From contig CAMWUM010000003.1 in assembly GCA_947177435.1 (NCBI GenBank), positions 1 to 20,929 on the forward strand: a stretch of 20,929 nt of DNA, in the 5' to 3' direction. Within the stretch, counting starts at the first letter, position 1; each line of letters begins with the position of its first letter. The notes beneath the pieces are model-generated. The model did not search any database, had not been told where the DNA came from, and was given only the letters and a program-made list of their open reading frames with translations. Made by a program: the position numbers and the translations under genes. Positions 1,828-19,904 of this stretch are shown one piece after another. Origin of the DNA: an uncultured Muribaculaceae bacterium (GTDB taxonomy: Bacteria; Bacteroidota; Bacteroidia; Bacteroidales; Muribaculaceae).

Positions 1828-2205
1828 ATGACATCATTAGGCATTTTCGGCGCTGAGAACGGCGTGATGGCGTTGGTGGCACTGCTCACCGGCGCTGGCC
1901 TTGTGTTTTTGGCCCTGTGGATTGCGGGGCTGATTTCGCCAAAGTCTTACAACCGGCAGAAGGGTGAGCCTTACGAGTGCGGCATCCCGACGCGCGGCGA
2001 GAGCATGTCGCAGTTCAAGGTGGGCTACTACCTGTTTGCGATCCTGTTCCTGATGTTTGACGTTGAGACCGTTTTTCTCTATCCTTGGGCCGTGAAGATG
2101 CGCGCCTGGGGCGCTGACGGCCTGCTGGCCATCGCGATTTTCTTCGCAATCATAGTGCTGGGCCTCGTTTACGCCTGGCGGAAAGGAGCATTGGAATGGA
2201 AGTGA
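1828..2205 (+). CDS. nuoA: NADH-quinone oxidoreductase (complex I) subunit A
   Basis: A 125-residue membrane subunit of the complex I proton pump, sited near the quinone channel at the junction of the membrane and peripheral arms. It has three membrane segments (about residues 10-32, 66-86 and 93-115). The family signature is in the TM1-2 loop and TM2: PYECGIPTRGESMSQFKVGY, then LFLMFDVETVFLYPWAV, including the conserved Cys of the loop and the acidic D-V-E. Length is normal (about 115-150). The ATG lies in an A-rich, SD-less context typical of the phylum, and no earlier in-frame start is plausible. It is the first gene of the superoperon and overlaps nuoB by 10 bases. Confidence 0.97.
   Translation: MTSLGIFGAENGVMALVALLTGAGLVFLALWIAGLISPKSYNRQKGEPYECGIPTRGESMSQFKVGYYLFAILFLMFDVETVFLYPWAVKMRAWGADGLLAIAIFFAIIVLGLVYAWRKGALEWK
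2182..2188 (+). promoter_or_regulatory. Shine-Dalgarno sequence of nuoB
   Basis: AAAGGAG lies inside the end of nuoA, 7 bases before the nuoB ATG at 2196. Few other starts in this window have such a site, as is usual in Bacteroidetes. It supports ATG 2196, and thus the 10-base overlap with nuoA, over the later Met codon at 2217. Confidence 0.65.
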
Positions 2206-2807
2206 CGACCAAAAGCATGCCCTACGAGGCATGGAAAGACAATGAATACATCGAGAACCTGGTAAAGGAGCTGCAGGAGTCTGGCACCAACGTGATCGTG
2301 GGCCAGTTCGACAAGCTCATCAACTGGGGCCGAAGCAACTCCATCTGGCCGCTGACGTTCGCCACGAGCTGCTGCGGCATTGAGTTCGTGTCGCTGGGCG
2401 CGGCCCGCTTCGACATGGCCCGCTTCGGCTGGGAGGTGGCTCGTTCGAGCCCACGCCAGGCCGACTTCATGATGGTGGCCGGCACGATCGTACACAGAAT
2501 GGTGCCCGTGTTCCGCCGCCTCTACGACCAGCTGGCTGAGCCTAAGTACGTGATTGCCTGCGGCAGCTGCGCGATTTCGGGCGGCCCGTTCCGTAATTCT
2601 TACCACGTGGCCAAGGGCATCGAGGACATCGTGCCCGTCGACGTGTTCGTGCCCGGCTGCCCGCCCCGTCCCGAGGCTATGATCTACGGCATCATGCAGC
2701 TGTCGCGCAAGATTAAGGTGGAGCGCTTCTTCGGCGGCGTCAACCGCCAGCAGAGCCAGGAGCAGTTCCTGCGCGAGCATCCGGTCGAAGGCCTCGACGT
2801 GGAATAA
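2196..2807 (+). CDS. nuoB: NADH-quinone oxidoreductase subunit B (N2 cluster subunit)
   Basis: A 203-residue peripheral-arm subunit that binds the terminal [4Fe-4S] cluster N2, from which electrons pass to quinone. All four ligands are visible: the adjacent C59-C60 in FATSCCGIEF, C125 in CGSCAISGG, and C155 in PGCPPRPEAMIYG. The helix MARFGWEVARSSPRQAD and the strand FMMVAGTIVHRM are also typical. A further C122 precedes the third ligand. Length is usual. The gene overlaps nuoA and has its own Shine-Dalgarno site, which suggests translational coupling. Confidence 0.97.
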   Translation: MEVTTKSMPYEAWKDNEYIENLVKELQESGTNVIVGQFDKLINWGRSNSIWPLTFATSCCGIEFVSLGAARFDMARFGWEVARSSPRQADFMMVAGTIVHRMVPVFRRLYDQLAEPKYVIACGSCAISGGPFRNSYHVAKGIEDIVPVDVFVPGCPPRPEAMIYGIMQLSRKIKVERFFGGVNRQQSQEQFLREHPVEGLDVE

Positions 2808-2854
2808 GGCCGCAATTAACAATGTAAACCAATCACGCAAATATTCACCGAGAT

Positions 2855-4489
2855 ATGGCAAACATACAGGAAAAGATAGCGAAGCTCTTCCCCGAGGCCG
2901 TCTGCGAGCAGTTCGACACGCTGCAGGTGACCATCCCCGACAGCCGCTGGCACGATCTGGCCGTGGCTCTCAAGGAGGATCCGGACCTTTGCTATGACTA
3001 TCTGATCACCATCGTGGGCATGGACTGGAAGACGTCGATGGGCTGCGTATATTATATGATGTCGACCACACGCGGCAACGACGTGATCGCCGTAAAGGTG
3101 CTCGCCACCGGCGACCGCGAGATGCCGATGATCCACTCCGTGTACGACGTGTGGGCCGTGGCCACTCTCTATGAGAGGGAGGTGTACGACTTCTTCGGCA
3201 TCGTGTTCGTCAACAACCCCGACATGCGTCGCCTGTTCCTCAACATCGACTGGATCGGATACCCCCTGCGCAAGGATTACAACGACGATCCCAACATCAA
3301 CCCCGCCACCACCCGCAGCGAGCGTCAGAGCGATTTCACCCAGAGCTGGGTGGAGGAGCCCGACGGACGCATCGTCAAGACCGAGCCCCGCATCTTCGCC
3401 GAGGATGACTTCGTGGTCAACATCGGTCCGCAGCACCCCTCGACCCACGGCGTGCTCCGCTTCCGCACTGCTGTCGATGGCGAGACCATCAAGAAGATTG
3501 ACGTGTACATGGGCTACATCCACCGCGGCGTCGAGAAGCTCAGCGAGAAGCTGACCTACCAGCAGACGCTGCCCTTCATGGACCGTCTCGACTACTTCTC
3601 GGCCCACAATTACCACCATGGCCTGTGCCGTCTGATCGAGCGTGCCGCCGGCATCACCATCAGCCGCCGCGCCGAGGTGATACGCGTGATGATGGACGAG
3701 CTTTCGCGCATCGCTTCGCACTGCCTGTTCATGGGCACGTTCTGCATGGACCTTGGCGCCACCTCGATGCTCTTCTACACCCTGCGCGTCCGCGAGCAAA
3801 TCCTCGACATCATGGAGCGCACGTGCGGCGCCCGCATGACGTTCAACTACGATTGCATCGGCGGCGTGATGCAGGATCTCGACTCCAACTTCCAGCAGGA
3901 CGTAAAGGACCTGCTGGCCGTAATCCCCGCCAATATAAAGGAATACAACAAGGTGTTTGTCGGCAACGTCATCGCCAAGCAGCGCATGGAGGGCATTGGC
4001 CACCTGTCGAAGGAAGACGCCATCGCCTACGGCGTGACCGGCCCCTCGGGACGCGCCTCGGGCTGGAGCTGCGACCTGCGCAAGATACGCCCCTACAGCA
4101 TCTATCCCGAACTCGAGTTTGACGAGGTGCTTGCCACCGAAGGCGACGCTATGGCTCGCTTCAAGGTGCGCCTCGAGGAGATTGTGCAGTCGGCCCGCAT
4201 CCTCGAGCAGCTGGTCGACAACATCCCCGAAGGCGAATACTGCGTCAAGGTGCCCAAGGTGCTCAAGCTGCCCGTGGGACACTGGTGGGAGATGGTCGAG
4301 GGATGCCGCGGCGTCTTCGGCCTCTACCTCGAGAGCGACGGTTCGACCCAGCCTTACCGCCTGAAGATCGCGCCTCCGTGTCTGCCGGCTGCCGGCGTGG
4401 TGGACCACATCACCCGCGGCATGAAGATCGCCGACCTGATCGCCATCGGCGGCTCGCTCGACTACATCATCCCCGACATGGACCGTTAA
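2855..4489 (+). CDS. nuoCD: NADH-quinone oxidoreductase fused subunits C and D
   Basis: A 544-residue fusion of the two subunits that form much of the quinone site of the peripheral arm. The N-terminal NuoC domain (about 1-150) carries the 30-kDa signature: YEREVYDFFGIVF from Y106, MRRLFL, and PLRKDY near 138-143. A linker of about 40 residues leads to the NuoD domain, which opens with NIGPQHPSTHGVLRF from N189. GYIHRGVEKL, the quinone-site helices and the conserved ending GGSLDYIIPDMDR follow. Such CD fusions occur in Bacteroidetes and in enterobacteria. No frameshift is seen at the junction, so the fusion is real. A 47-base gap separates it from nuoB and 31 bases from nuoH. Confidence 0.96.
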   Translation: MANIQEKIAKLFPEAVCEQFDTLQVTIPDSRWHDLAVALKEDPDLCYDYLITIVGMDWKTSMGCVYYMMSTTRGNDVIAVKVLATGDREMPMIHSVYDVWAVATLYEREVYDFFGIVFVNNPDMRRLFLNIDWIGYPLRKDYNDDPNINPATTRSERQSDFTQSWVEEPDGRIVKTEPRIFAEDDFVVNIGPQHPSTHGVLRFRTAVDGETIKKIDVYMGYIHRGVEKLSEKLTYQQTLPFMDRLDYFSAHNYHHGLCRLIERAAGITISRRAEVIRVMMDELSRIASHCLFMGTFCMDLGATSMLFYTLRVREQILDIMERTCGARMTFNYDCIGGVMQDLDSNFQQDVKDLLAVIPANIKEYNKVFVGNVIAKQRMEGIGHLSKEDAIAYGVTGPSGRASGWSCDLRKIRPYSIYPELEFDEVLATEGDAMARFKVRLEEIVQSARILEQLVDNIPEGEYCVKVPKVLKLPVGHWWEMVEGCRGVFGLYLESDGSTQPYRLKIAPPCLPAAGVVDHITRGMKIADLIAIGGSLDYIIPDMDR

Positions 4490-4520
4490 GCCATTAGCAA
4501 TCTAACAATACACAGCGACA

Positions 4521-5627
4521 ATGATACTCACTGACATAACTGAGACCCTCAATTTCGCCAACGTCACCTCGGCTATCGACAACCTGCTCGAGCAGACCTG
4601 GGGGCTGCCCTCCTGGGCCGCCACCACCATCGAGTGCGTGCTGGTGGGCGTGGGCTTGCTCCTGGTCTACGCGCTGCTGGCCCTGTTCTACATCCTGTAC
4701 GAGCGCAAGATCTGCGCCTACATTCAGTGCCGCGTCGGCCCGGTGCGCGTCGGCCCGTGGGGCTTGCTGCAGTCGTTCGCCGACATGTTCAAGATTCTCA
4801 TCAAAGAGCTCATCGACCTGAAGAACGTCGACAAGTTCCTCTTCGCCTTGGCTCCCTACTTGGTGATTATCGCCTCGATGATGGCCTTCGCCGTGCTGCC
4901 CTGGGGCCGCGGCCTGCAGATCATCGACTTCAACATCGGCATCTTCTTCCTGGTGGCCGTGAGCTCGATTGGTGTGCTCGGCATCCTGCTGGCCGGCTGG
5001 TCGTCGGCCAATAAGTTCACCCTTATCGGCGCTATGCGTTCGGGCGCGCAGATGGTCAGCTACGAGCTGTCGATCGGCCTGTCGGTGCTGACGATGGTAT
5101 GCCTGTCGGGCACCATGTCGATTACCGGCATCGTTGAGGGCCAGAACCGCCTCTGGTACCTGTTCCAGGGCCACATCCCCGCTATCATCGCATTCGTAAT
5201 CTACCTGATTGCCGCCACGGCCGAGACCAACCGCGGCCCGTTTGACCTCCCCGAGGCAGAGAGCGAGCTGACGGCCGGCTACCACACCGAATACTCCGGC
5301 ATCCACTTCGGCTTCTTCTACTTGGCTGAGTACCTCAACCTGTTCGTAGTGTCGGGCGTGGCCTCGCTGTTGTTCCTCGGCGGCTGGCAGCCCCTGCACA
5401 TCCCCGGTTGGGAAGGATTCAACGACGTGATGAACCACGTGCCCTCGATCGTATGGTTCCTGATCAAGTGCTTCGTCATCTCGTACATCATCATTTGGTT
5501 TAAGTGGACATTCCCCCGTCTGCGCATCGACAGCCTGCTCAAGCTCGAGTGGAAGTATCTGCTGCCCATCAACCTCTTCAACCTCGTGCTGATGGCTATG
5601 ATTATCTTCTGCGGCTGGACACTGTAA
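4521..5627 (+). CDS. nuoH: NADH-quinone oxidoreductase subunit H
   Basis: A 368-residue membrane subunit with about eight transmembrane segments that forms most of the quinone entry chamber and couples quinone chemistry to pumping. Signatures are [14 protein letters not shown] (61-74) with the following [20 protein letters not shown], and the acidic loop from A234, [17 protein letters not shown], followed by GYHTEYSG. Length is slightly above the usual 325-350. In Bacteroides, as I recall, nuoI follows directly; here nuoH is followed after 38 bases by atpD, so the ATP synthase cluster begins at this point. A weak 7/8 match to a -7 element lies in that gap but lacks a partner element. Confidence 0.97.
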
Positions 5628-5650
5628 AAGCCAATACTATTGCAAACTAA

Positions 5651-7168
<1,518 letters not shown>

Positions 7169-7199
7169 TACATTAGCAACCAATCCATTTCACAGCGCA

Positions 7200-7436
7200 A
7201 TGACACTGAAAATCATTTCGGCGGAAAAAGTAGAATTCGAGGGCCAGGCCCAGAGCGTGACCCTGCCGGGCACGATGGGAGCATTTACCGTGCTTGACCA
7301 TCACGCCTCGCTCATCTCCACCCTCGCCAAGGGCAAAATCGCATACCGCGACGAGGCCGGCCATGATGCCGAGCTCGAAGTGCCCGGCGGCCTGGTTGAC
7401 GTCGACAACAACGTAGTGTCTGTGTGCATCTTTTAG
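7200..7436 (+). CDS. atpC: F1Fo ATP synthase subunit epsilon, short form
   Basis: A 78-residue protein covering only the N-terminal beta-sandwich of epsilon (LKIISAEKVEFEGQAQSV, LPGTMGAFTVLDHHASLIS, GGLVDVDNNVVSV). The usual 130-140-residue epsilon adds a C-terminal helical hairpin that can extend into F1 and block ATP hydrolysis; that part is absent. The stop is followed after 4 bases by atpB, and no continuation is seen in another frame, so this is not a recent truncation. Short epsilon subunits are, as I recall, usual in Bacteroidetes. It should still link gamma to the c-ring, but epsilon-type inhibition is not expected. Confidence 0.93.
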   Translation: MTLKIISAEKVEFEGQAQSVTLPGTMGAFTVLDHHASLISTLAKGKIAYRDEAGHDAELEVPGGLVDVDNNVVSVCIF

Positions 7437-7440
7437 CGGC

Positions 7441-8697
7441 ATGAATCGTCTACTATTTATATTAGCAATCGCAGTGGCCGCTCTGGCTGCTCCTTTCCGC
7501 GCTGCGGCCAACGAGGCCGGCAAAAGCGACGATCCCAAGGACCACGCCAAAGAGATAATCTTTGAGCACCTGGGCGACGCATACGGATGGGAGGTGCCTT
7601 TCGACCACCACCACCGCATCCCCCTGCCGTGCATAGTGCTGCCCAAGGAGGGCGGCGTGTGCGTATTCTCATCTGCCCGCGTGCAGCATGGCGAGTACAT
7701 GTGCGACAAGGGCATGTTCAAGATTGCCACTGAGGCTGAAGCCGAGCAGTACCACGTGCGTGCCGGCAAGCTCGTGCAGGTAATCGAGGGCCCCGACGGC
7801 TCGGTGGAGTACTACCGCCCCTGGTGGTTCGACTTCTCGATCACCAAGAACGTGGCCGCGCTCATCATCTCTTGCCTGCTCGTGGGCGGACTGATGCTCT
7901 GGCTTGCCCGTTGGCACCGCCGCAAGGGCCTCAAGGCACCGCGCAAGGGCCTGGGCGCTATCGAAGCCCTCGTCGACTTCATCTACAAGGGCGTGATTGT
8001 GAGCACCCTGGGCGAGAACGCCAAGCGCTTCGCTCCGTACCTGCTCACGGCATTCTTCTTCATCTTCGGCATGAACCTGCTGGGCCTGGTAGTCATCTTC
8101 CCCGGCGGCGCCAACCTTACTGGCAATATCGCCGTGACCTTGGTGATGGCCGTGCTTACGTTCGCAGTCACCAACATCTTCGGCACCAAGGAGTACTGGA
8201 AGGAAATCTTCTGGCCCGATGTGCCCCTGTTCCTCAAATTCCCGCTGCCGATCATGCCCGTGATTGAGGTGTTCGGCATGTTCACCAAGCCTGCGGCCCT
8301 GACTGTGCGTCTTATGGCCAACATGATGGGCGGCCACATGATCGTGATCGTGCTCACGCTGCTCATCTTCATCTTCTATTACATGAGTCCCGTGGCCGGC
8401 GGCGCCACCACCGTGGTGTCGGTCATCTTCTCGGTGTTCATGCTGCTGATCGACGTGCTGGTGAGCTTCATCCAGGCCTACGTGTTCACCATGCTCTCCA
8501 CCATCTTCATTTCGCTGGCCCAAGTCAAGGAGCACCACGCGGCCCCCGCTGCCGAGTGCGACCCCGCCGACGCCGACTGCCAGCAGATGAGCGCTGAAGA
8601 GCTCGAGCGCATGCGTCGCACCCAGCGAGTGCACGAGCAGGAACTGCACGCCGCACGCAAAGAAGCCCTCAAGAAAAAGGGCGAAACCGCAAACTAA
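7441..8697 (+). CDS. atpB: F1Fo ATP synthase subunit a, with N- and C-terminal extensions
   Basis: The proton-channel stator subunit, 418 residues against about 270 in E. coli. Residues 1-24 look like a signal peptide (LLFILAIAVAALAA, cleavage near AAA-N). A periplasmic domain of about 110 residues follows, with HHHRIPLPCIVL and three Cys, a Bacteroidetes-type extension. The channel core follows with about five membrane segments. The essential Arg is R290 in TVRLMANMMGGH, and Q345 in IQAYVFTML matches E. coli Q252. H299 and D338 occupy the places of E. coli E219 and H245, a swapped acid/base pair. After the last helix (STIFISLAQV) comes a charged tail of about 55 residues with CDPADADC. The gene starts 4 bases after atpC; no atpI-like gene precedes it. 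Confidence 0.95.
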   Translation: MNRLLFILAIAVAALAAPFRAAANEAGKSDDPKDHAKEIIFEHLGDAYGWEVPFDHHHRIPLPCIVLPKEGGVCVFSSARVQHGEYMCDKGMFKIATEAEAEQYHVRAGKLVQVIEGPDGSVEYYRPWWFDFSITKNVAALIISCLLVGGLMLWLARWHRRKGLKAPRKGLGAIEALVDFIYKGVIVSTLGENAKRFAPYLLTAFFFIFGMNLLGLVVIFPGGANLTGNIAVTLVMAVLTFAVTNIFGTKEYWKEIFWPDVPLFLKFPLPIMPVIEVFGMFTKPAALTVRLMANMMGGHMIVIVLTLLIFIFYYMSPVAGGATTVVSVIFSVFMLLIDVLVSFIQAYVFTMLSTIFISLAQVKEHHAAPAAECDPADADCQQMSAEELERMRRTQRVHEQELHAARKEALKKKGETAN

Positions 8698-8992
<295 letters not shown>

Positions 8993-9007
8993 TAACAAGC
9001 TCGTTCA

Positions 9008-9505
9008 ATGGAACTATTCACGCCTGATTTCGGCCTGATCTTCTGGATGTTCGTATGCTTTGGCATCCTCTTCCTCATCCTGTGGAAGTATGCCTGGCCT
9101 ATGATCATCAAAGGCATGGAGACTCGCGCCGACCTTATCGACAAAGGTGTGGAGTATGCGCAAAACGCCAAAGAGCAGCTTGACAACGCCCACCTTGAGG
9201 CCGGCAAAATCACCGCCGAGGCCCGCAAACAGCAGGCCGAGATACTCCGCGAGGCCGACAAGATGAAAAACCAAATCGTCGAAGAGGCGCGCGGCGAGGC
9301 TCAGAAGGCTGCCCAGAAGGTGATGGACCAGGCCAACGAGGCCATCCGCCAGCAGCAGAAGGAGGCCGAGCAGGCCCTGCGCGACCAAGTGAGCGAGTTC
9401 GCCCTGCAGATCGCCAACAAGGTGGTCAAGCAGCAGCTCGCCGACGACAAGGCGCAGGCCAAGCTCGTAAGCTCGCTCCTCGACGAGATGGACCAGAAAA
9501 ATTAG
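9008..9505 (+). CDS. atpF: F1Fo ATP synthase subunit b
   Basis: The peripheral stalk subunit, 165 residues. An N-terminal membrane anchor (about residues 8-28, LIFWMFVCFGILFLILW) precedes a long Ala/Glu/Lys/Gln-rich helix (about 35-150) with coiled-coil character, such as EARKQQAEILREADKMKNQ, and a short delta-binding end. Only one b gene is present, so a homodimer is expected. Length is usual (155-170). It starts 15 bases after atpE and is followed after 6 bases by atpH. Confidence 0.96.
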   Translation: MELFTPDFGLIFWMFVCFGILFLILWKYAWPMIIKGMETRADLIDKGVEYAQNAKEQLDNAHLEAGKITAEARKQQAEILREADKMKNQIVEEARGEAQKAAQKVMDQANEAIRQQQKEAEQALRDQVSEFALQIANKVVKQQLADDKAQAKLVSSLLDEMDQKN

Positions 9506-9511
9506 CAGCCG

Positions 9512-10060
9512 ATGGACCAAGGACTCATACCCCGCAGATACGCCAAGGCCCTGTACCGCGCTGCTGTCGACAAAGGGTGCCAACAGGAGCTGTATGCCAA
9601 AATGCAGCTCCTGGGCGACGCCTTTGCCGCCGAGCCCAAACTGGGCGAGACGATGCGCAACCCCTTTGTGGCCGACGCCGACAAGGCACAGCTGATACTG
9701 GCTGCGGCGCAGGCCGGCGACAAAACCCCGCTGCTGGCCGACTTCGTCAAGCTCCTCGAGCAGAACGGACGCATCGGCATGGTGCGCGACATCGCCGCGG
9801 CTTACTGCCTGATCTACCGCAAGGAGAGCAACATCTACCGCGTGGAGGTGGTGAGCGCTGCGGCTATGGACCCGGCCCAGGAGGAGAGGCTCAAGCAGCT
9901 TATCCTCTCGCACCTGCGCGGCGGCTCGATGGAGTATACATCTCGCATCGACTCCAGCCTAATAGGCGGTTTCGTGGTCAACATCGACAACGAGCGCCTC
10001 GACGCCTCTGTCAAAAACGAATTGAAACAACTGCGTCTTAAACTTTTAAGCAACAAATAA
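9512..10060 (+). CDS. atpH: F1Fo ATP synthase subunit delta
   Basis: The 182-residue OSCP/delta subunit that joins the b stalk to the top of F1. The N-terminal helical bundle begins LIPRRYAKALYRAAVDKG and includes NPFVADADK. The C-terminal domain has the family pattern YRVEVVSAA, followed by SRIDSSLIGGFVVNIDNERL and a final basic helix. Length is normal. It sits in the canonical place between atpF and atpA, 6 and 9 bases away, without overlap. Confidence 0.96.
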   Translation: MDQGLIPRRYAKALYRAAVDKGCQQELYAKMQLLGDAFAAEPKLGETMRNPFVADADKAQLILAAAQAGDKTPLLADFVKLLEQNGRIGMVRDIAAAYCLIYRKESNIYRVEVVSAAAMDPAQEERLKQLILSHLRGGSMEYTSRIDSSLIGGFVVNIDNERLDASVKNELKQLRLKLLSNK

Positions 10061-10069
10061 GCGAATACA

Positions 10070-11644
10070 ATGATTAATCCCAGCGAGATATCGGAAGTAT
10101 TGAAACAACAGCTCGAGAACGTTAACCAGAAGGTGTCGTTCGAGGAAGTGGGCTCGGTGCTCGAAGTCGGCGACGGCGTGGCACACGTCTACGGCCTCGA
10201 CAACGTGCGCGCCAACGAGCTGGTCGAATTTGAAAACGGCGTGAAGGGCGTAGCCCTCAACCTTGAAGAGAGCAACGTCGGCGTGATTTTGCTCAACAAT
10301 GTCAACAAAATCACCGAAGGCATGACCGTGCGCCGCACCGGCGAAATCGCTTCCATTCCCGTTGGCGAAGGCCTGCTCGGCCGCGTAATCAATGTGCTGG
10401 GCGAGCCGATTGACGGTCGAGGCCCCATCTCGGGCGACCTCGTGCGCATGCCCCTGGAGCGCAAGGCTCCCGGTGTCATCTACCGCCAGCCCGTAAACCA
10501 GCCGCTGCAGACCGGCATCAAGGCCATCGACTCGATGGTGCCCATCGGCCGCGGCCAGCGCGAGCTTATCATCGGCGACCGCCAGATCGGCAAGACCGCC
10601 ATCGCTATCGATACCATCATCAACCAGCGCCCTAACTACGAGGCCGGCAAGCCCGTGTACTGCATCTATGTGGCCATCGGACAGAAGGCTTCGTCGATCG
10701 CCGCGCTCGTTGAGACCCTGCGCCAGCACGGCGCGCTCGACTACACCGTGGTCGTGGCCGCTTCGGCCTCCGACTCGGCCTCGATGCGCTACTATTCGCC
10801 CTTTGCCGGCGTAGCCATCGGCGAGTACTTCCGCGACACCGGCCGCGATGCCCTCATCGTATACGATGACCTCTCGAAGCAGGCCGTGGCTTACCGCGAA
10901 ATCTCGCTGATCCTCAAGCGCCCCTCGGGCCGCGAGGCATACCCCGGCGATATCTTCTACTTGCATTCGCGTCTGCTCGAGCGCGCTGCCAAGATTATCA
11001 ACAACCAGGAGATCGCATCCAAGATGAACGACCTGCCCGCCGTGCTCAAAGACAAGGTCAAGGGCGGCGGCTCGCTCACCGCGCTCCCCATCATCGAGAC
11101 CCAGGCAGGCGACGTATCGGCTTACATCCCCACCAACGTCATCTCAATCACCGACGGACAGATTTACCTTGAGACGGCCCTCTTCAACCGAGGCATCCGC
11201 CCGGCCATCAACGTGGGCATCTCCGTGTCGCGTGTCGGCGGCAACGCCCAGATCAAGTCGATGAAGAAGGTGGCCGGCACCTTGAAGATCGACCAGGCAC
11301 AGTTCCGTGAGCTCGAGTCGTTCACCAAGTTCGGTGGCGACATCGACCCCGTAACCGCCCGCGTCATCGACAAGGGCCGCAAGAACGAGCGCCTGCTCAT
11401 CCAGCCTCAGTATCACCCCGTGGCAGTGGCCGATGAAGTGGCCCTGATCTACTGCGGCGTCAACGGCCTGCTCAGCAACGTGCCCCTCGACAAGGTGGCC
11501 GAGTTTGAGAAGGAATTGCTGCGCCTGTTGCACGCCAAGCACGCCGATGACGTGCTGGCCGTCATCGCCAGCGGCAAGCTCACTGACGACTGCACCGCCA
11601 AGCTCACCGCCGCCGCCAACGAAATCGCTGCCGGCCTGGCATAA
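10070..11644 (+). CDS. atpA: F1Fo ATP synthase subunit alpha
   Basis: The non-catalytic nucleotide-binding subunit of F1, 524 residues. The barrel domain contains [20 protein letters not shown]. The P-loop GDRQIGKT is at 169-176 (K175). The alpha signature [17 protein letters not shown] is present, as are [20 protein letters not shown] and [17 protein letters not shown]. Length is usual for Bacteroidetes. A GC-rich hairpin follows the stop before atpG, the widest break inside the atp cluster (69 bases). Confidence 0.98.
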
Positions 11645-11653
11645 CATCCTATT

Positions 11654-11678
11654 GCCCGCGGGGCCGGTCCCCGCGGGC
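11654..11678 (+). promoter_or_regulatory. GC-rich hairpin between atpA and atpG
   Basis: A perfect 10-bp inverted repeat, GCCCGCGGGG (11654-11663) and CCCCGCGGGC (11669-11678), closes a 5-base loop (CCGGT). No T run follows; the next 35 bases are A-rich and nearly free of G. It is therefore not a classical terminator. It may be an RNA-processing or stabilising element that sets relative levels of the messages on either side, or a weak partial terminator. Confidence 0.7.
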
Positions 11679-11713
11679 TCATAAACATTAAAAAACAAAA
11701 CAATCCACTGCCA

Positions 11714-12598
11714 ATGGCAACATTGAGAGAACTTAAGGGACGTATCGGATCGGTAGCCTCGTCTGAGAAAATCACGGGCGCCATGAAGATGATTTCGTCG
11801 GCTAAAATGCACAAGGCCGAGGGCGTGCTGCGCAAGCTCGTGCCTTTCCGCAATCAAATAGAGGCCATCATTGGCAATCTGATGAGCGCCGACGCCCAAT
11901 TCTCGTCGCCCTTGACCGAAGAGCAGACTGTCGAGAAAGTGGCAATCGTGGCCTTTGGCAGCGACGACGGCCTGTGCGGCGCCTACAACGCCAACATGGC
12001 CAAGAGCGTAAAGGCCCATATGGCCGACCTGCGCAAGCGCTACGGCCAAGGCCTGAAGATCGACCTCTACCCCGTGGGCAAGAAGATGGAGAAGGCCCTG
12101 ATCAAGATGTCAGGCCCCAACACCGGCCTGGTCACCGGCCTGGAGGTCAACTCCAAGAGCGAAGGTGAGAGCATCAAGCGATTCTACCAGCGCCTGATGG
12201 ACCTCTTCGTGAGCCGCCAGGTCAACAAGGTCGACCTGGCCTATATGCACTTCCGCTCGCTCAGCCGCCAAGAGCCCGTGGCCGAGCAGATGCTGCCCGT
12301 GCAGCAGAGCATGTTCGCCTCGCAGCAGGGCAAGGCTTCGGGTCGCCCCTACCTGTTCGAGCCCGGTCCGCAGGCCATCTTTGAGGCTGTGCTGCCGATG
12401 TTCACCCTGGCGATGCTCACCGACGTGTTCTGCGAGAACCGCGCCAGCGAGCAGGCCGCCCGCGTGATGGCAATGCAGAGCGCCAACGACAACGCCAAGA
12501 AACTGCTCGACCAGCTGCAGCTCGAATACAACAAGCTGCGCCAGCAGGGCATCACCAGCGAGCTGCTCGACATCGTCGGCGGCCAAGTGAGGGACTGA
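11714..12598 (+). CDS. atpG: F1Fo ATP synthase subunit gamma
   Basis: The rotor shaft subunit, 294 residues. The N-terminal helix of the coiled coil reads LRELKGRIGSVASSEKITGA then MKMISSAKM. The middle Rossmann-like part contains FGSDDGLCGAYNANM. The C-terminal helix ends with the family signature AMQSANDNAKKLLDQLQLEY, then RQQGITSELLDIVGG. Length is normal. It closes the nested ATP synthase set; nuoI begins 69 bases on. The hairpin upstream suggests its expression may be set separately from atpA. Confidence 0.97.
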   Translation: MATLRELKGRIGSVASSEKITGAMKMISSAKMHKAEGVLRKLVPFRNQIEAIIGNLMSADAQFSSPLTEEQTVEKVAIVAFGSDDGLCGAYNANMAKSVKAHMADLRKRYGQGLKIDLYPVGKKMEKALIKMSGPNTGLVTGLEVNSKSEGESIKRFYQRLMDLFVSRQVNKVDLAYMHFRSLSRQEPVAEQMLPVQQSMFASQQGKASGRPYLFEPGPQAIFEAVLPMFTLAMLTDVFCENRASEQAARVMAMQSANDNAKKLLDQLQLEYNKLRQQGITSELLDIVGGQVRD

Positions 12599-12667
12599 CG
12601 CCCGACATTGACTTAGGAAACAAGAATAAAGACAACATACATTCACTTACTCTTCACAATATCTATA

Positions 12668-13432
12668 ATGGGTAGCGTAACAGAATATTTCAAGGGACTT
12701 GGCTCTGGCATCTCAAGCCTGGTGAAAGGCATGCAGGTGACCGGCCATGAACTTTTAAAGAAGAAGATTACAGAGTACTATCCCGAGGACCGCGACACCT
12801 ACAAGTGGCCTGAGCGCTTCCGCGCGATCCTGCGCCTGAAGTACGACGACGAAGGCCGCCACAAGTGCATCGCTTGCGGCACCTGCGAGCGCGTTTGTCC
12901 CAACGGCACGATCCACCTCGACATCAAGACAGTCGACACCTGGGATGGCAAGAAGAAAAAGAAGCTCGACAAGTACATCTACGACCTCGGCAGCTGCACA
13001 TTCTGCCAGCTGTGCGTTACCAACTGCCCCACCAACGCTCTCGACTTCAGCAACGACTTCGAGCAGGCAGTGTTCACACGCGACAAGCTCGTAAAGCAGC
13101 TTAACTATCTGCCCGAGTTGCCCGAGCCCGAGCCCACCGAGGAAGAGAAGGCCAAGATTCTGGCCGAGCGTGAGGCCAAGGTGGCAGCCGCCAAGGCAGC
13201 CGCAGCCGCTAAGGCAGCAGCCGGAGCCCCCGCTCCCGCAGCCAAGCAGCCCGCCGGCACGCCCACCGTGGCAGCCGCAGCGCCCGCAGCATCGGCCATC
13301 GATAAGACGCGCGCAGCCGTCGAGGCCGCCCGCAAGGCAGTGGCCGCAGCCGCCACCCCCGAGGACAAGGCTAAGGCCGAGGCCAAGCTTGCCAAGCTCG
13401 AGAGCATCCTCAAAGCCAAGGAGGCCGAGTAA
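12668..13432 (+). CDS. nuoI: NADH-quinone oxidoreductase subunit I with a long Ala/Lys-rich tail
   Basis: The ferredoxin-like subunit carrying clusters N6a and N6b, 254 residues against about 160-180 usually. The first motif is C67-IA-C70-GT-C73-ERV-C77-P and the second C110-TF-C113-QL-C116-VTN-C120-P, so both [4Fe-4S] sites are complete. From about residue 149 the conserved domain gives way to PELPEPEPTEEEKAK and then about 100 residues rich in Ala, Lys and Glu, with a Pro/Ala hinge (GAPAPAAKQPAGTP) and a predicted helix at the end. The frame stays intact and codon use matches the domain. No NuoE, F or G gene is present, so NuoI is the likely entry point for electrons. The atp cluster ends 69 bases upstream. 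Confidence 0.95.
   Translation: MGSVTEYFKGLGSGISSLVKGMQVTGHELLKKKITEYYPEDRDTYKWPERFRAILRLKYDDEGRHKCIACGTCERVCPNGTIHLDIKTVDTWDGKKKKKLDKYIYDLGSCTFCQLCVTNCPTNALDFSNDFEQAVFTRDKLVKQLNYLPELPEPEPTEEEKAKILAEREAKVAAAKAAAAAKAAAGAPAPAAKQPAGTPTVAAAAPAASAIDKTRAAVEAARKAVAAAATPEDKAKAEAKLAKLESILKAKEAE
13180..13240 (+). repeat. Low-complexity GCA/GCC/AAG codon run inside nuoI
   Basis: Irregular repeats of GCAGCC and AAGGCAGCC encode the first Ala/Lys-rich block of the NuoI tail, about residues 172-191. The units are imperfect and mix GCA, GCC and GCT codons. Such a run can change length by slippage, so tail length may vary among strains. Confidence 0.55.
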
Positions 13433-13460
13433 AACGTAAATAATTAAACAAACAATAGAT

Positions 13461-13982
13461 ATGAATTCAGTAGGAAGTATCATCCTGTACGCGATTGTCA
13501 CCCTGGTGATGGTCGTATGCTCGGTGCTCACTGTCACCACGCGCAAGATCCTGCGCGCGGCCACGTATCTGCTCTTCACCCTCTTCGGCGCGGCCGTGCT
13601 CTATTTCATGCTCGGCTACGAATTCCTGGGCGGCGTGCAGATTGCGGTCTACGCCGGCGGCATCGTGGTGCTGTTTGTCTTCGCCATCTTGCTCACGGGC
13701 AAGCCGGCCGACAATGCGGAGAGGCTCACAGCCAAGTCAACTTTCCTCGGAGTCTTTGCGGCTCTGGCCATGCTGGGCGTAGGCGCGTGGGCTCTGTGCA
13801 GCCGCGTGACCCGCATGCTCACCGGCGCGGCCATGCCCGAAAAGGCTCAGGAGACTGTCGACCAGATCGGTGAGCAGCTGCTCAGCAGCGGCCATGGCGG
13901 ATACCTGTTGCCTTTCGAGGCCATCAGCGTACTTTTGTTGGCATGTATAATCGGTGGCGTAGTGATCGCCCGCAAACGTTGA
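13461..13982 (+). CDS. nuoJ: NADH-quinone oxidoreductase subunit J
   Basis: A 173-residue membrane subunit with about five transmembrane segments, next to the quinone channel and the first antiporter-like unit. The conserved TM3 region is YEFLGGVQIAVYAGGIVVLF, which in complex I structures holds a pi-bulge linked to coupling. TM1 (AIVTLVMVVCSVLTV) and the last helix (AISVLLLACIIGGVVIA) are clear. Length is usual (165-185). nuoK starts 7 bases after its stop. Confidence 0.95.
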   Translation: MNSVGSIILYAIVTLVMVVCSVLTVTTRKILRAATYLLFTLFGAAVLYFMLGYEFLGGVQIAVYAGGIVVLFVFAILLTGKPADNAERLTAKSTFLGVFAALAMLGVGAWALCSRVTRMLTGAAMPEKAQETVDQIGEQLLSSGHGGYLLPFEAISVLLLACIIGGVVIARKR

Positions 13983-13989
13983 CGCAGCT

Positions 13990-14301
13990 ATGGAGATTAC
14001 ATTGATTTTTTGGCTTGTGCCTTCACTGATCATGTTCTGCTGCGGCGTCTACGGCTTCATCACCCGCCGCAACATGATCGCGATGCTCATATCGCTCGAG
14101 CTGATGCTCAACTCGGTCGATATCAACTTCGCCCTGTTCAACCGCTACTTGTTCCCCGGCCAAATGGAGGGCATGTTCTTCTCGCTCTTCGCCATCGCCC
14201 TGGCCGCAGCCGAGACTGCGCTCGCCATCGCGATTATCCTCAACATCTTCCGCAAAGTGAAGAATGTCGACGTACAAGGTCTTGACACAATGAAATTCTA
14301 A
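13990..14301 (+). CDS. nuoK: NADH-quinone oxidoreductase subunit K
   Basis: A 103-residue, three-helix membrane subunit homologous to MrpC. The two acidic residues of the proton path are present: E37 in LISLELMLNSVDINF and E75 in ALAAAETALAIAI. Two adjacent Cys (FCCGVYGF) lie at the end of TM1. Length is normal. It is packed between nuoJ (7 bases) and nuoL (5 bases), which suggests coupled translation. Confidence 0.97.
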   Translation: MEITLIFWLVPSLIMFCCGVYGFITRRNMIAMLISLELMLNSVDINFALFNRYLFPGQMEGMFFSLFAIALAAAETALAIAIILNIFRKVKNVDVQGLDTMKF

Positions 14302-14306
14302 GCGCT

Positions 14307-16247
14307 ATGAGTCCTACAATTCCTATTCTTATACTCGCCATCCCCTTGTTCATGTTCCTGCTGCTGGGACTGCTGGGCATGAAGATGAGCCACAAGCTGG
14401 CTGGATGGCTGGGCTGCCTGGGCATGGGCACCACCCTGGTGCTCGCCTACTGCACGGCCTACACTTACTATTTTGGCGGTGACTTCGTCGGCGCCAACGG
14501 CGAAAGGCTGATGTCGGTGGTCTTCAACGAGACCTGGCTGGCCTTCACCGACAAGCTCGTCATCAGCATGGGCTTCATGCTCGATTCGATATCGGCGCTT
14601 ATGCTGGTGGTGATCACCACCATCTCGTTCCTGGTGCACCTCTATTCGCTGGGGTACATGGAGGGCGAGAAGGGCTTCCAGCGCTATTACGCATTCCTGT
14701 CGCTGTTCAGTTTCTCGATGCTGCTCCTCGTCGTTGCCACCAACATCTTCCAGATGTACATTGGCTGGGAGCTCGTGGGTGCGTCGTCTTACCTGCTGAT
14801 CGGCTTCTATTACACCAAGCATTCGGCCGTGTCGGCCTCGAAGAAGGCGTTCATCGTCACCCGCTTCGCCGACCTTGGCTTCCTGCTCGGCATCCTCGTC
14901 CTGTCGTTCACCACTCAGACATTCGACTTCGCCGAGCTTTGCGGCAATCCGACGGCTCAGGTCACTGCCTTCGCCGGCAAGACCTTCATGGGTTGCTCGC
15001 TGCTCACCTGGGCGCTTATCCTCATCTTCACGGGTGGTATGGGTAAGTCGGCCATGATGCCTCTGCACATCTGGCTGCCTGACGCCATGGAGGGCCCGAC
15101 CCCCGTTTCGGCCCTTATCCACGCCGCCACGATGGTTGTGGCCGGTGTCTACTTGGTGGCCCGTATGTTCCCGCTTTACCTCTGGTCGTTCGACGCCACC
15201 ACGTTCATCGTAGTCGTGGGCGCCATCACCGCCTTCTACGCCGCCATGGTGGCCTGCGCTCAGATCGACATCAAGCGCGTGCTCGCGTTCTCGACCATCT
15301 CGCAGATTGCCTTTATGATGGTTGCGCTCGGCGTGGCCAGCGAGGGCGAGGGCCAGGTATGCCACCACGGTCTGGGCTATATGGCCTCGATGTTCCACAT
15401 GTTTACGCACGCTATGTTCAAGGCCCTGCTCTTCCTTGGCGCCGGCGCCCTGATCCACGCAGTGCACAGCAACGACTACACCGCCATGCACGGCCTGCGC
15501 AAGTTCATGCCCGTCACCCACATTACCTTCCTGATCGGCTGCTTGGCCATCGCCGGCATCCCGCCCTTCTCGGGCTTCTTCTCGAAGGATGAGATTATGG
15601 CTGCCTGCTACGCCTGGCATCCCGTCATCGGCGTGTGGATGTCGGTTGTCGCCGGTCTGACGGCCTTCTATATGTTCCGCCTCTACTACCTTATCTTCTG
15701 GTGGAAAGAGCACAAGATCGAGCACGGCCACAAGCCCCACGAGGCTCCGCTGCCCATGCTCATCCCGCTGGTGTTCCTCGCCGCCGTATCGTGCGTGGCC
15801 GGCTTCATTCCCTTTGGCCACTTCGTCAGCTGGAATCACCTGCCCTATGACATCCACCTCGACTGGACCATCGCCGGCATCAGCGTGACCATCGCAGTAG
15901 TGGCCATCGTGATCGCCACGGTGATGTACCGCAAGGAGAACCCCCTGCCCGCCAAGATGAAGGCCCTGCTGCCCGCGCTCTGGGACTGGTGCTACCACCG
16001 CTTCTACTGGGACGAGCTCTATATGTTCATCACCCACAAGATCATCTTCAACGGCATCTGCCGCCCCATCGCATGGTTTGACCGCCACATCATCGACGGC
16101 ACCATGGACGCAATGGCCACCATCACCAACAAGGCTTCTGTCGCCATCCGCGGCTTGCAGTCAGGCCAGGTGCAGATGTACGTTTGGGTTTACCTCATCG
16201 GCGCGCTGCTGCTCTGCGGCCTGGGCGTAATGGCAGTTATCCTATAA
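14307..16247 (+). CDS. nuoL: NADH-quinone oxidoreductase subunit L
   Basis: The distal antiporter-like proton-pumping subunit, 646 residues. The charged residues of the central axis are in place: E155 in GWELVGASSYLLIG, K247 in GGMGKSAMMPLHIWLPDAM, K323 in DIKRVLAFSTISQ, K372 in MFKALLFLGAG, and K427-D428 in FSGFFSKDEIM. After the core come the segments that form the long lateral helix and the final TM anchor (VWVYLIGALLLCGLGVMAV). Length is slightly above E. coli (613). It is followed after 35 bases by nuoM. Confidence 0.97.
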   Translation: MSPTIPILILAIPLFMFLLLGLLGMKMSHKLAGWLGCLGMGTTLVLAYCTAYTYYFGGDFVGANGERLMSVVFNETWLAFTDKLVISMGFMLDSISALMLVVITTISFLVHLYSLGYMEGEKGFQRYYAFLSLFSFSMLLLVVATNIFQMYIGWELVGASSYLLIGFYYTKHSAVSASKKAFIVTRFADLGFLLGILVLSFTTQTFDFAELCGNPTAQVTAFAGKTFMGCSLLTWALILIFTGGMGKSAMMPLHIWLPDAMEGPTPVSALIHAATMVVAGVYLVARMFPLYLWSFDATTFIVVVGAITAFYAAMVACAQIDIKRVLAFSTISQIAFMMVALGVASEGEGQVCHHGLGYMASMFHMFTHAMFKALLFLGAGALIHAVHSNDYTAMHGLRKFMPVTHITFLIGCLAIAGIPPFSGFFSKDEIMAACYAWHPVIGVWMSVVAGLTAFYMFRLYYLIFWWKEHKIEHGHKPHEAPLPMLIPLVFLAAVSCVAGFIPFGHFVSWNHLPYDIHLDWTIAGISVTIAVVAIVIATVMYRKENPLPAKMKALLPALWDWCYHRFYWDELYMFITHKIIFNGICRPIAWFDRHIIDGTMDAMATITNKASVAIRGLQSGQVQMYVWVYLIGALLLCGLGVMAVIL

Positions 16248-16282
16248 TCCTATGGCGCTAATCCTATAAAATACTTTTTGCG

Positions 16283-17791
16283 ATGTTATTTTCAAATCCG
16301 TTAATATACTTTGTGGTGATACCCCTGCTGATGCTGGCCGGGCTGTCGCTGTGCAAGAATATAAAGCAGATACGCGCCGTGGCCGTGATCGGTTCGATCG
16401 GTCTTTTGGCCCTCTCGACCGTGCTGTTGGTCAAGTACCTGGCCATGCCGCCCATCAACGGCGACCACCAGATGGCCTGGGAAGGCTCGTGGCAGTGGTT
16501 CCCCCAGCTCAACATCTGCCTGTCGGTGGGCGTTGACGGCATCTCGCTGGCCATGCTCCTGCTTTCGTCGATAATCGTGTTCGCCGGTTCGTTCGCATCG
16601 TGGACCATCAACCAGCCCAAGGAGTTCTTCCTCTGGCTCATCCTGCTGTCGACGGGCGTGTTCGGCTTCTTTATCTCGACCGACCTGTTCACTATGTTTA
16701 TGTTCTACGAGGTCGCCCTCATCCCGATGTACCTGCTGATCGGCGTATGGGGCTCGGGCCGCAAGGAGTACTCGGCCATGAAGCTCACCCTGATGCTTAT
16801 GGGTGGCTCGGCCTTCCTGATGCTCGGCCTCATCGGCATCTATTACAACTCGAGCGTTGACGGCCAGCACACCTGGAATCTCCTCGAGATTGCCCGCAAC
16901 CACGCCATCACCCCCGAGTGGCAGCGTCTGCTCTTCCCGCTCACGTTCGTCGGCTTCGGCGTGCTGGGCGCCATGTTCCCCTTCCATACATGGAGCCCCG
17001 ACGGTCACGCTTCGGCCCCCACGGCAGTGTCGATGCTCCACGCAGGCGTGCTTATGAAGCTCGGCGGCTACGGCTGCTTCCGCGTGGCCATCTATCTGAT
17101 GCCTGAGGCTGCCCACGAGCTCGGCTGGATTTTCCTCGTGCTCACCGGTATCTCGGTAGTGTACGGTGCGTTCAGCGCATGCGTTCAGACCGACCTCAAA
17201 TACATCAACGCATACTCGTCAGTGTCGCACTGCGGCCTGGTGCTCTTCGCCATCCTGATGTACAACCAGACGGCTATGACCGGCGCCATCATGCAGATGC
17301 TCTCGCACGGCCTAATGACCGCCCTCTTCTTTGCCCTGATCGGTATGATTTACGGACGTACCCACACCCGCGACATTCGCGAGATGGGCGGCATGATGCA
17401 GATTATGCCTTACCTGTCCGTCTGCTACGTGATTGCCGGTATGGCGTCGCTCGGTCTCCCCGGCCTCAGCGGCTTCGTGGCTGAGATGACGATTTTCGTA
17501 GGCTCGTTCGCCCACACCGACACATTCCACCGCGTGTTCGTGATCATCGCCTGCTGCTCGATCGTGATTACCGCAGTCTACATCCTGCGCGTTGTCGGCA
17601 AGCTGCTCTTCGGCCCGGTGCACAACGAGCATCACCGCCAGCTCACCGACGCCACCTGGTGGGAGCGCCTGTCAACCGCCACGCTCATCATCTGCGTGGC
17701 TGCCATCGGCTGCTTCCCCAACTTCTTCGCCAACCTGATCAAGCCCACCTTTGTCGAGGAAATCTTCAAAGTGTTCCAGTACAATTCGTAG
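16283..17791 (+). CDS. nuoM: NADH-quinone oxidoreductase subunit M
   Basis: The middle antiporter-like subunit, 502 residues. E143 in FYEVALIPMYLLIG matches E. coli E144, and K259 in MLHAGVLMKLGGYG matches K265. The TM7 lysine (E. coli K234) is replaced: the segment reads GFGVLGAMFPFHTWSPDGH and L228 stands in that place by hand alignment. Other conserved parts are TDLKYINAYSSVSHCG and the TM12 region GLPGLSGFVAEMTIFVG, whose Glu matches E. coli E407. Length is usual. The ATG at 16283 follows an in-frame gap of 35 bases after nuoL. Confidence 0.97.
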   Translation: MLFSNPLIYFVVIPLLMLAGLSLCKNIKQIRAVAVIGSIGLLALSTVLLVKYLAMPPINGDHQMAWEGSWQWFPQLNICLSVGVDGISLAMLLLSSIIVFAGSFASWTINQPKEFFLWLILLSTGVFGFFISTDLFTMFMFYEVALIPMYLLIGVWGSGRKEYSAMKLTLMLMGGSAFLMLGLIGIYYNSSVDGQHTWNLLEIARNHAITPEWQRLLFPLTFVGFGVLGAMFPFHTWSPDGHASAPTAVSMLHAGVLMKLGGYGCFRVAIYLMPEAAHELGWIFLVLTGISVVYGAFSACVQTDLKYINAYSSVSHCGLVLFAILMYNQTAMTGAIMQMLSHGLMTALFFALIGMIYGRTHTRDIREMGGMMQIMPYLSVCYVIAGMASLGLPGLSGFVAEMTIFVGSFAHTDTFHRVFVIIACCSIVITAVYILRVVGKLLFGPVHNEHHRQLTDATWWERLSTATLIICVAAIGCFPNFFANLIKPTFVEEIFKVFQYNS

Positions 17792-17823
17792 GCATCATCA
17801 CCCTTTAAAAACGCTAAAGCAAA

Positions 17824-19290
17824 ATGGATTACTCACAGTTTTTGGCAATGAAGCAAGAGATTGCGCTCCTTGTGGTCTTTCTGCTTGTCTTCTTGTATGA
17901 CACATTCATGCCGCAGCGCAGCGGCAAAGGCTTGCCAGTGTTCGCGACGGTGCTGATGCTTATTGCCACCATCGGAGGCTTCTGCAGCTGCTGCCTGGGC
18001 GGCACCTGCTCGCTGTCGGCCTTCTCGGGCATGTACGAGACCAGCGCCGCCATTGTGGCCATAAAGAACATCCTCAACATCGGCGTGGTCATCGTCCTTA
18101 TCCAGTCGATACGCTGGGCCAACGGCCCCGACATGGCCGTGCGCCGCGGAGAGTTCTACGAGTTGCTGCTCGTCACGCTCTTCGGCATGTACCTTATGAT
18201 TTCGGCTCGCCACTTCCTGCTGTTCGTTATCGGTCTTGAGAGCGCATCGCTCCCGCTGGCCGCTATGGTAGCCCTCGACAAGAAGCGCTACGAGAGCAGC
18301 GAGGCAGCCATCAAGTACATGCTAACCGCCGTATTCTCGTCGGCCATCTTCATGATGGGACTGTCGTTTGTATACGCTCTGTGCGGTTCGCTCTACTTCG
18401 AGACCATCTACATCAACCTGGCCGCCCAGATGAGCCCGCTGCTGATCCTGGCTATGGCCTTCGTGCTGGCCGGCGTCGGCTTCAAGCTCTCGCTCGTGCC
18501 CTTCCACCTCTGGACCGCCGACGTTTACCAGGGCGCTCCCACCTCGGTGACCTCCTACCTGTCGGTCATCTCCAAAGGCGCTGCCGCTTTTGCCCTCCTC
18601 GTGATTCTGGCCCAGGCTTTCGGCACGGTTTACAGCCAGGTATGGAGCTGGATGCTCTACGCCCTGATCATCCTGACCATCACCGTCGGCAACCTCTTCG
18701 CCATGCGCCAGCGCAACATGAAGCGCTTCCTGGCATTCTCGTCAGTGTCGCAGGCCGGCTACATCATGCTCGGCGTGATCGGCTTCAATGGCACGGCTAT
18801 GGCTGCCCTGATGTTCTACATCCTTGTCTACATCTTCTCTAACCTTGGCGCCTTCGGCGTGATCCAAGCCATCGAGAACAACTGCGGCAAGGTGAGCATG
18901 GACGATTACAAGGGCCTGTACAAGACCAACCCGCGCTTGTCGTTCGCTATGATGCTGGCGATGTTCTCGCTCGCAGGCATTCCTCCGTTCGCCGGCTTCT
19001 TCTCGAAGTTCTTCATCTTCACCGGCGCACTGGCACAGGGTTCGACAGCGATGTACGTGCTGGTGCTCATCGCCTTGATCAACACCATCATCTCGCTCTA
19101 CTATTACCTGCTCGTAGTGAAGGCAATGTTTATCAGCCCCGACGAAAGCGTCATCCCCACGTTCCGTTCCTCGTGCAGCGAGCGCCTGGGCATGTGGATT
19201 GCCGTGGCCGGTATCATCTTCCTCGGCATCGTAAGCTGCGTCTACAACTGGCTGCTAGGCATCGGCGCCCACACCGCCATCTTCCAGTAA
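17824..19290 (+). CDS. nuoN: NADH-quinone oxidoreductase subunit N
   Basis: The antiporter-like subunit nearest NuoK, 488 residues. The key charged residues are kept: E139 in VIGLESASLPLAAM, K221 in VGFKLSLVPFHLWTADVYQG, K251 in ISKGAAAFALL, and K395 in FAGFFSKFFIF. The stretch LFAMRQRNMKRFLAFSSVSQ is also typical. The N-terminal part has a cysteine cluster, C54-S-C56-C57-LGGT-C62, in the loop after the second hydrophobic segment, where I recall no such pattern in NuoN. It is the last gene of the superoperon; a strong hairpin follows 15 bases after the stop. Confidence 0.96.
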   Translation: MDYSQFLAMKQEIALLVVFLLVFLYDTFMPQRSGKGLPVFATVLMLIATIGGFCSCCLGGTCSLSAFSGMYETSAAIVAIKNILNIGVVIVLIQSIRWANGPDMAVRRGEFYELLLVTLFGMYLMISARHFLLFVIGLESASLPLAAMVALDKKRYESSEAAIKYMLTAVFSSAIFMMGLSFVYALCGSLYFETIYINLAAQMSPLLILAMAFVLAGVGFKLSLVPFHLWTADVYQGAPTSVTSYLSVISKGAAAFALLVILAQAFGTVYSQVWSWMLYALIILTITVGNLFAMRQRNMKRFLAFSSVSQAGYIMLGVIGFNGTAMAALMFYILVYIFSNLGAFGVIQAIENNCGKVSMDDYKGLYKTNPRLSFAMMLAMFSLAGIPPFAGFFSKFFIFTGALAQGSTAMYVLVLIALINTIISLYYYLLVVKAMFISPDESVIPTFRSSCSERLGMWIAVAGIIFLGIVSCVYNWLLGIGAHTAIFQ

Positions 19291-19305
19291 GCCATCCCCC
19301 ATACT

Positions 19306-19345
19306 CAACAAGGGCAGTGTCGCCGCAGCGGCACTGCCCTTGTTG
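19306..19345 (+). terminator. Terminator of the nuo-atp-nuo superoperon
   Basis: A perfect 14-bp inverted repeat, CAACAAGGGCAGTG (19306-19319) and CACTGCCCTTGTTG (19332-19345), flanks a 12-base loop (19320-19331). It lies 15 bases after the nuoN stop. The downstream sequence is AT-rich (GGAAATATTCAA) but has no pure T run, so efficiency is uncertain and some readthrough into the ferritin gene is possible. Confidence 0.8.
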
Positions 19346-19379
19346 GAAATATTCAATAACAACTTAACCCCCTAACTCC

Positions 19380-19901: not shown

Positions 19902-19904
19902 GTT

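Follow-up and report, generated by a model that had tools for sequence, protein, structure and literature searches.

A complete ATP synthase operon nested between nuoH and nuoI of the complex I operon in Muribaculaceae and related families of Bacteroidales

We analysed a stretch of 20,929 nucleotides from an uncultured Muribaculaceae bacterium (contig CAMWUM010000003.1 of GenBank assembly GCA_947177435.1), hereafter the window, in which a complete ATP synthase (atp) operon lies inside the complex I (nuo) operon. Complex I is a main source of the proton gradient and ATP synthase its main consumer, and the two operons are usually found apart from each other. In the window, the + strand from 1828 to 19290 carries nuoA-B-CD-H, followed by atpD-C-B-E-F-H-A-G and then by nuoI-J-K-L-M-N. 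This gene arrangement is real, old and clade-wide, and seemingly it is undescribed. The explanation that we consider probable as a whole, on sequence evidence, is an ancient move of the atp genes as one block, with the combined block now forming one transcription unit in Muribaculaceae.

All 18 genes and their order were confirmed by NCBIfam matches and open reading frames (ORFs), and the features of the block are as follows.

1659..1691, + strand: Bacteroidetes-type promoter match TTTG-N21-TACTTTTG before nuoA, 10/10 positions of what we take to be the consensus
1828..2205, + strand: nuoA, NCBIfam, below curated cut-offs
2196..2807, + strand: nuoB, NCBIfam, over cut-off
2855..4489, + strand: nuoCD (C and D fused), NuoC and NuoD NCBIfam matches in one ORF, PRK06075 (NuoD) over cut-off
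4521..5627, + strand: nuoH, NCBIfam, over cut-off
5628..5665, + strand: 38-base nuoH-atpD junction without a hairpin or an exact promoter box; one-mismatch box at -31 of atpD
5666..7168, + strand: atpD (beta), TIGR01039, over cut-off
7200..7436, + strand: atpC (epsilon, 78 aa, short), TIGR01216 positions 2-76 of 130, below cut-off
7441..8697, + strand: atpB (a), TIGR01131, over cut-off
8741..8992, + strand: atpE (c), TIGR01260, over cut-off
9008..9505, + strand: atpF (b), TIGR01144, over cut-off
9512..10060, + strand: atpH (delta), TIGR01145, over cut-off
10070..11644, + strand: atpA (alpha), TIGR00962, over cut-off
11645..11713, + strand: atpA-atpG gap, GC-rich hairpin without a T run, -24.1 kcal/mol, z -4.0
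11714..12598, + strand: atpG (gamma), TIGR01146, over cut-off
12599..12667, + strand: 69-base atpG-nuoI junction without a hairpin (-1.3 kcal/mol) or any promoter box, one-mismatch boxes included
12668..13432, + strand: nuoI with a long Ala/Lys/Pro-rich tail, NCBIfam NuoI, below cut-offs, best to residues 17-166 of 254
13461..13982, + strand: nuoJ, NCBIfam, below cut-offs
13990..14301, + strand: nuoK, NCBIfam, over cut-off
14307..16247, + strand: nuoL, NCBIfam, over cut-off
16283..17791, + strand: nuoM, TIGR01972, over cut-off
17824..19290, + strand: nuoN, TIGR01770, over cut-off
19305..19346, + strand: hairpin after nuoN, 19 pairs, no T run, -36.0 kcal/mol

For the four genes that score below the curated cut-offs (nuoA, atpC, nuoI and nuoJ), no better reading was found. 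The eight structural genes of an F-type ATP synthase are all present in the block, and the 11-subunit complex I set without NuoEFG (nuoA-B-C-D-H-I-J-K-L-M-N, with C and D fused) is also complete. Intergenic gaps range from -10 to 69 bases, the largest being atpA-atpG and atpG-nuoI with 69 bases each, in agreement with the original prediction of an atp operon nested between nuoH and nuoI with gaps of at most 69 bases. In its single strand and short gaps, the 18-gene block has the layout expected of one operon. The assembly, of which the window is contig C3, has 311 contigs and is 79% complete, and with that caveat a single copy of atpD exceeds the family cut-off in the assembly, which speaks for relocation rather than for a second copy.

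The arrangement extends well beyond this genome. In all 36 same-genus genomes atpD comes directly after nuoH, with the matches 31-147 bases apart. In 27 of these, namely those with both genes on one contig, nuoI follows nuoH at 6.8-7.4 kb, while in the other nine a strong NuoI match is missing or lies on another contig. The original prediction proposed that Bacteroidales genomes be searched for the nuoH-atpD and atpG-nuoI junctions. Of 295 sampled genomes of the order, 114 gave a NuoH-like match at E 1e-60; excluding six whose only matches were weaker and resembled paralogues left 108 NuoH-bearing genomes. Both junctions are present in all 22 of these that are nested: nuoI lies 6.7-7.5 kb away in 21, and in the remaining one (G226) each junction is on its own contig. 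In 84 genomes nuoI lies within 500 bases of nuoH, and two (G220 and G240) were placed neither as nested nor as contiguous. The 22 nested genomes account for all the NuoH-bearing genomes seen in seven families (labelled here f1, f22, f28, f60, f68, f88 and f109), a count that covers NuoH-bearing members, as members without NuoH could exist. These families include Muribaculaceae, Barnesiella and Coprobacter: f1 includes Candidatus Amulumruptor, placed by NCBI in Muribaculaceae, and a Muribaculaceae record; f22 a Barnesiella record; f28 Candidatus Caccoplasma; f60 Coprobacter secundus; and f88 Candidatus Gallibacteroides, while f109 clusters with Barnesiella sp. An22 in a 117-locus tree.

Named genomes were scanned as well, and the best 80 of 557 were compared. 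Both junctions are visible in 48 of them; in 15 the contig runs out after nuoH-atpD, in 16 nuoI adjoins nuoH, and in one the contig stops after nuoH itself. Among the non-nested records are some named Odoribacter, Butyricimonas, Culturomica, Alistipes and Rikenellaceae. Of the NuoH genomes in a class sample of 295, 51 were counted besides G000 and G057, and 46 of them have nuoI within 557 bases. For the other five, atp genes are absent from the four stretches examined (the G597 stretch reaches about 600 bases past nuoH, and G593 is not among the four). Nesting was found in none of the NuoH genomes examined in the class sample outside the seven families, and viral contigs scanned with a relative's NuoH gave no match. 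The nested arrangement is not peculiar to the window's genome, and it recurs far beyond chance.

Phylogenetic trees were built from nuo and atp genes, with FastTree local values as supports. The nested loci are monophyletic with two sets of nuo genes (support 0.994 with 30 of 48 loci nested, and 1.0 with 28 of 42) and with one set of atp genes (0.994, 30 of 35). In the 117-locus tree, for which 121 loci were offered and four lacking a gene were dropped, 88 loci form one clade with a support of 0.998 and no non-nested intruder; counted in the 88 are some genomes present in duplicate, loci in which just one junction can be seen, and L216, where the contig breaks off after nuoH. A first nuo tree placed G314 with f30, probably owing to missing genes, and was superseded by the trees of fuller gene sets. 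Since the nested loci form one clade in both nuo and atp trees, one ancient relocation appears to be the simplest history. The pattern itself is plain, and we infer from it that atpDCBEFHAG moved as one block between nuoH and nuoI in the common ancestor of at least seven Bacteroidales families. The original prediction had pictured an intact atp operon that landed without damage and was kept. That the operon is intact, left both sides undamaged and has long been kept holds true, but the event does not belong to this genome; it belongs to the clade.

The promoter signals were compared over 71 nested loci, comprising the window, 30 further loci and 40 named loci; the latter come from the 48 in which both junctions are visible, eight being dropped as copies of genomes already included. 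We used what we take to be the Bacteroidetes promoter consensus, including its -7 box TANNTTTG. In 50 of 67 loci the exact box lies in the 200 bases before nuoA, against 10.5 expected, whereas over the same distance it is not in excess before atpD (5/71, 6.4 expected) or nuoI (2/70, 2.6 expected). With the full consensus at 9/10 or better, the counts are 39 of 67 for nuoA (12.3 expected), 6 of 71 for atpD (3.9) and 1 of 70 for nuoI (0.5). The consensus promoter claimed for the front of the block is borne out in the window by its 10/10 match. The original prediction had named a strong promoter together with a terminator at each junction as contrary evidence; promoter boxes are not in excess at the junctions. 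A scan for sigma-70 type sites has a site at the atpG-nuoI junction among its three best and a weaker one at nuoH-atpD; the former overlaps the nuoI start codon, its type is presumably unusual for Bacteroidetes, and it was set aside. For most loci these sequence scans would favour a promoter at the front alone, the f88 loci with exact boxes before atpD standing apart. A box before nuoA, with overall none in excess before atpD or nuoI, fits one long message in Muribaculaceae, whose sequences are best read as having one promoter, at the front.

The hairpins at the atpG-nuoI junction differ between families. With the named loci assigned to families by the 117-locus tree and the remainder counted as f1, a hairpin of -8 kcal/mol or stronger is present in 2 of 3 loci of f22, 5 of 6 of f109, 2 of 3 of f60 and 6 of 6 of f68, and in 0 of 2 of f88, 0 of 6 of f28 and 3 of 44 of f1. 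The three f1 loci concerned (L186, L192 and L226) take basal positions within the f1 group of that tree. Separate atp operons have a strong hairpin within about 100 bases after atpG in four of five cases (one from f106); in the fifth, L133 (also of f106), a promoter-like box and a coding-like stretch follow atpG in place of the hairpin. In the simplest account, the atpG-nuoI hairpin would be a terminator that was brought along with the atp genes and later lost in Muribaculaceae and Caccoplasma.

In Muribaculaceae, with one predicted promoter at the front, no clear promoter at the junctions and no terminator-like hairpin between atpG and nuoI, the genes most probably form one transcription unit of about 17.5 kb. 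Such a unit would make the proton-pumping quinone reductase and ATP synthase together, and shared expression seems likely in this family. Transcriptional lowering of nuo would then lower ATP synthase too, and the ratio of pump to synthase would depend on translation, RNA decay and processing, the last perhaps, speculatively, at the atpA-atpG hairpin. We infer both the co-transcription and its effect on this ratio from gene order and predicted signals. A hairpin of -9 kcal/mol or stronger lies between atpA and atpG in 7 of 70 loci, the window being among the carriers; Rfam gave nothing over the gathering scores in the window. In the other nested families, the atpG-nuoI hairpin may reduce or cleave the message before nuoIJKLMN. 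The hairpin that the original prediction placed after nuoN as terminator-like is present, but without a T run it is not a classical intrinsic terminator.

Several observations weigh against one message. The atpG-nuoI hairpins, found in 15 of the 18 loci of f22, f109, f60 and f68 and in the three f1 loci, could end the message there in those lineages; in Barnesiella (L114, L115, L117, L153, L154 and L155) the hairpin is terminator-like and its sequence varies by species, while the approximately 50 bases before nuoI change little. In both f88 loci examined (L130 and L131) an exact box stands 51 bases before atpD and the 200 bases preceding nuoA contain none, so that f88 may well start atp separately. 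The window itself has a one-mismatch box at -31 of atpD; however, such boxes are at chance level before atpD (31 of 71 loci, 38.5 expected) and give no signal even before nuoA (44 of 69, 42.7 expected). Exact boxes before nuoL are in modest excess (14 of 69, 5.0 expected), but each lies over 100 bases off, within nuoK or upstream of it, and none of the 69 loci has one within 100 bases. In addition, the junction gaps (median 40 bases for nuoH-atpD in 71 loci and 58.5 bases for atpG-nuoI in 70 loci) are longer than most gaps within the atp block (the gap comparison leaves out nuoL-nuoM and nuoM-nuoN, for which cross-matching paralogues gave wrong values in many loci), and the scan detects the Bacteroidetes-type consensus, so promoters of other types would escape it. 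Finally, the unit can be broken: in G271 (Candidatus Amulumruptor; locus L116, G271:C11) NuoL, next to two paralogue matches, is located about 1 Mb away from nuoI, and no nuoJ-N follows nuoI in the stretch examined, both atp junctions being kept. Given hairpins in, for example, Barnesiella and the boxes before atpD in f88, full read-through is not assumable for the whole nested clade.

An account compatible with one message is that the block landed by chance, was harmless and was kept since breaking a long operon harms, co-expression bringing no benefit. We regard such a neutral accident as a serious possibility that falls somewhat short of probable. A single origin explains the distribution, separate operons are retained in many relatives, and the unit did break in G271. 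However, all 22 nested genomes of the order sample have kept both junctions, whereas the window's upstream neighbours (including the ORFs at 568-1306) are found within 2.5 kb of nuoA in none of the 53 relatives with enough sequence. The comparison covers the upstream side, as a single locus was usable for the downstream neighbours. The persistence of the block against its changing neighbours shows cohesion, whichever force holds it together.

The hairpins in several nested families and the boxes of f88 suggest operon fusion in which the regulatory scars were erased stepwise. More tentatively, we may be seeing this fusion at successive stages: the atp block would have entered nuo with its own promoter and terminator, f88 would keep boxes before atpD, Barnesiella, Coprobacter and basal lineages would keep a hairpin valve before nuoIJKLMN, and Muribaculaceae and Caccoplasma would have erased both, so that producer and consumer of the gradient would be locked into one message and their ratio fixed after transcription.

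The nesting might instead be only geographic, with nuoA-H, atpD-G and nuoI-N as three side-by-side units that have their own starts and a hairpin ending the atp message. The atpG-nuoI hairpins of f22, f109, f60 and f68, some of which have T runs (for example L117 and L153), the boxes of L130 and L131 and the little-changed bases before nuoI in Barnesiella are what such units would lead one to expect. Nevertheless, exact boxes are not in excess before atpD or nuoI, the window has no hairpin at atpG-nuoI, and in f28 the gap from atpG to nuoI is only 6-17 bases. By contrast, a locus where the operons do stand side by side, L230 of Bacteroidales SIG115, has about 300 bases between them, in which both an exact box and a hairpin with a T run can be read by eye. 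We therefore think three units unlikely. Still less likely is that horizontal transfer rather than descent spread the nested block between families. Although nuo is patchy in the order, as the 114 of 295 genomes with a NuoH-like match illustrate, the nested families group alike in the nuo and the atp trees, and monophyly holds for most sampled families, with f60 as the main nested exception. An assembly artefact or chimaeric contig, which a 311-contig assembly might have raised, is rejected with near certainty, being contradicted by independent assemblies: the 36 same-genus genomes, the isolates Coprobacter secundus, Barnesiella sp. An22 and Paramuribaculum intestinale with both junctions, and the one-contig nested assemblies G328 and G295.

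Functionally linked operons joined in one neighbourhood are known as super-operons or uber-operons; no nesting of complex I and ATP synthase was found among these in the open-access titles and abstract starts listed. Likewise, the nested arrangement was not found in titles or abstract starts of the open-access papers listed, a scope outside which most subscription papers and all bioRxiv preprints lie. L230 resembles the window in having nuo and atp on the same strand, with atp directly after nuoN; it differs in that atp is not nested and the T-run hairpin and promoter box (17300-17610) separate the two. It was also considered as an intermediate of nesting and rejected, falling outside the nested clade in the 117-locus tree. 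A clade of gut bacteria with joined operons provides a natural experiment on whether the pump-to-synthase ratio must be tuned by transcription, and the separate-operon relatives, the nested families with a hairpin and those without one offer a ready-made comparison.

The nuo operon of Bacteroides fragilis, as described in the accessible part of one report (PMC7002350), resembles that of the window in lacking nuoEFG, an 11-subunit organization shared with Prevotella copri, and it spans ten consecutive locus tags, three genes fewer than in Escherichia coli. In contrast to the window, that part of the report does not mention atp genes in the operon, which is consistent, for B. fragilis, with the claim of the original prediction that Bacteroides has a contiguous nuo operon without atp. 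The atp locus of B. fragilis (PMC4154653) likewise starts with beta and epsilon; the accessible part of its description mentions no nuo neighbours and the word NADH is absent from the text, whereas the cluster of the window lies between nuoH and nuoI. The nuo operon of B. fragilis is described, in the same part of the former report (PMC7002350), as making no contribution to NADH oxidation, with an unknown electron donor, and as poorly expressed in anaerobic rich medium. If this regulation is typical, nesting would stop transcriptional silencing of nuo alone, since ATP synthase would be silenced with it. Among 25 genus genomes, none has NuoF over the cut-off (weak partial matches only), nor does any of the 41 searched in all; NuoE and NuoG were not searched, and the window's genome is incomplete. 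From the lack of NuoF in the 25 genus genomes, complex I of the window is probably not an ordinary NADH-driven pump.

Some minor features of the window were also noted. AtpC (7200-7436, 78 aa) covers only the first part of the epsilon model, and its C-terminal regulatory domain seems absent. The c subunit encoded by atpE presumably has no sodium motif. NuoI (12668-13432) carries an Ala/Lys/Pro-rich tail beyond its ferredoxin-like part, and the length of this frame varies widely among relatives. In the leader of nuoA (1731-1789), an inverted repeat followed by a T-rich stretch, read by eye, might be an attenuator. Upstream of the block, two small ORFs (568-1306) are candidate nucleotidyltransferase/HEPN-type-like genes, names which we assign provisionally; TonB-like matches lie further upstream of the block in L153, L154, L155 and L162. 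Downstream of the block, genes for ferritin and a single-stranded DNA-binding protein are located at 19380-20225.

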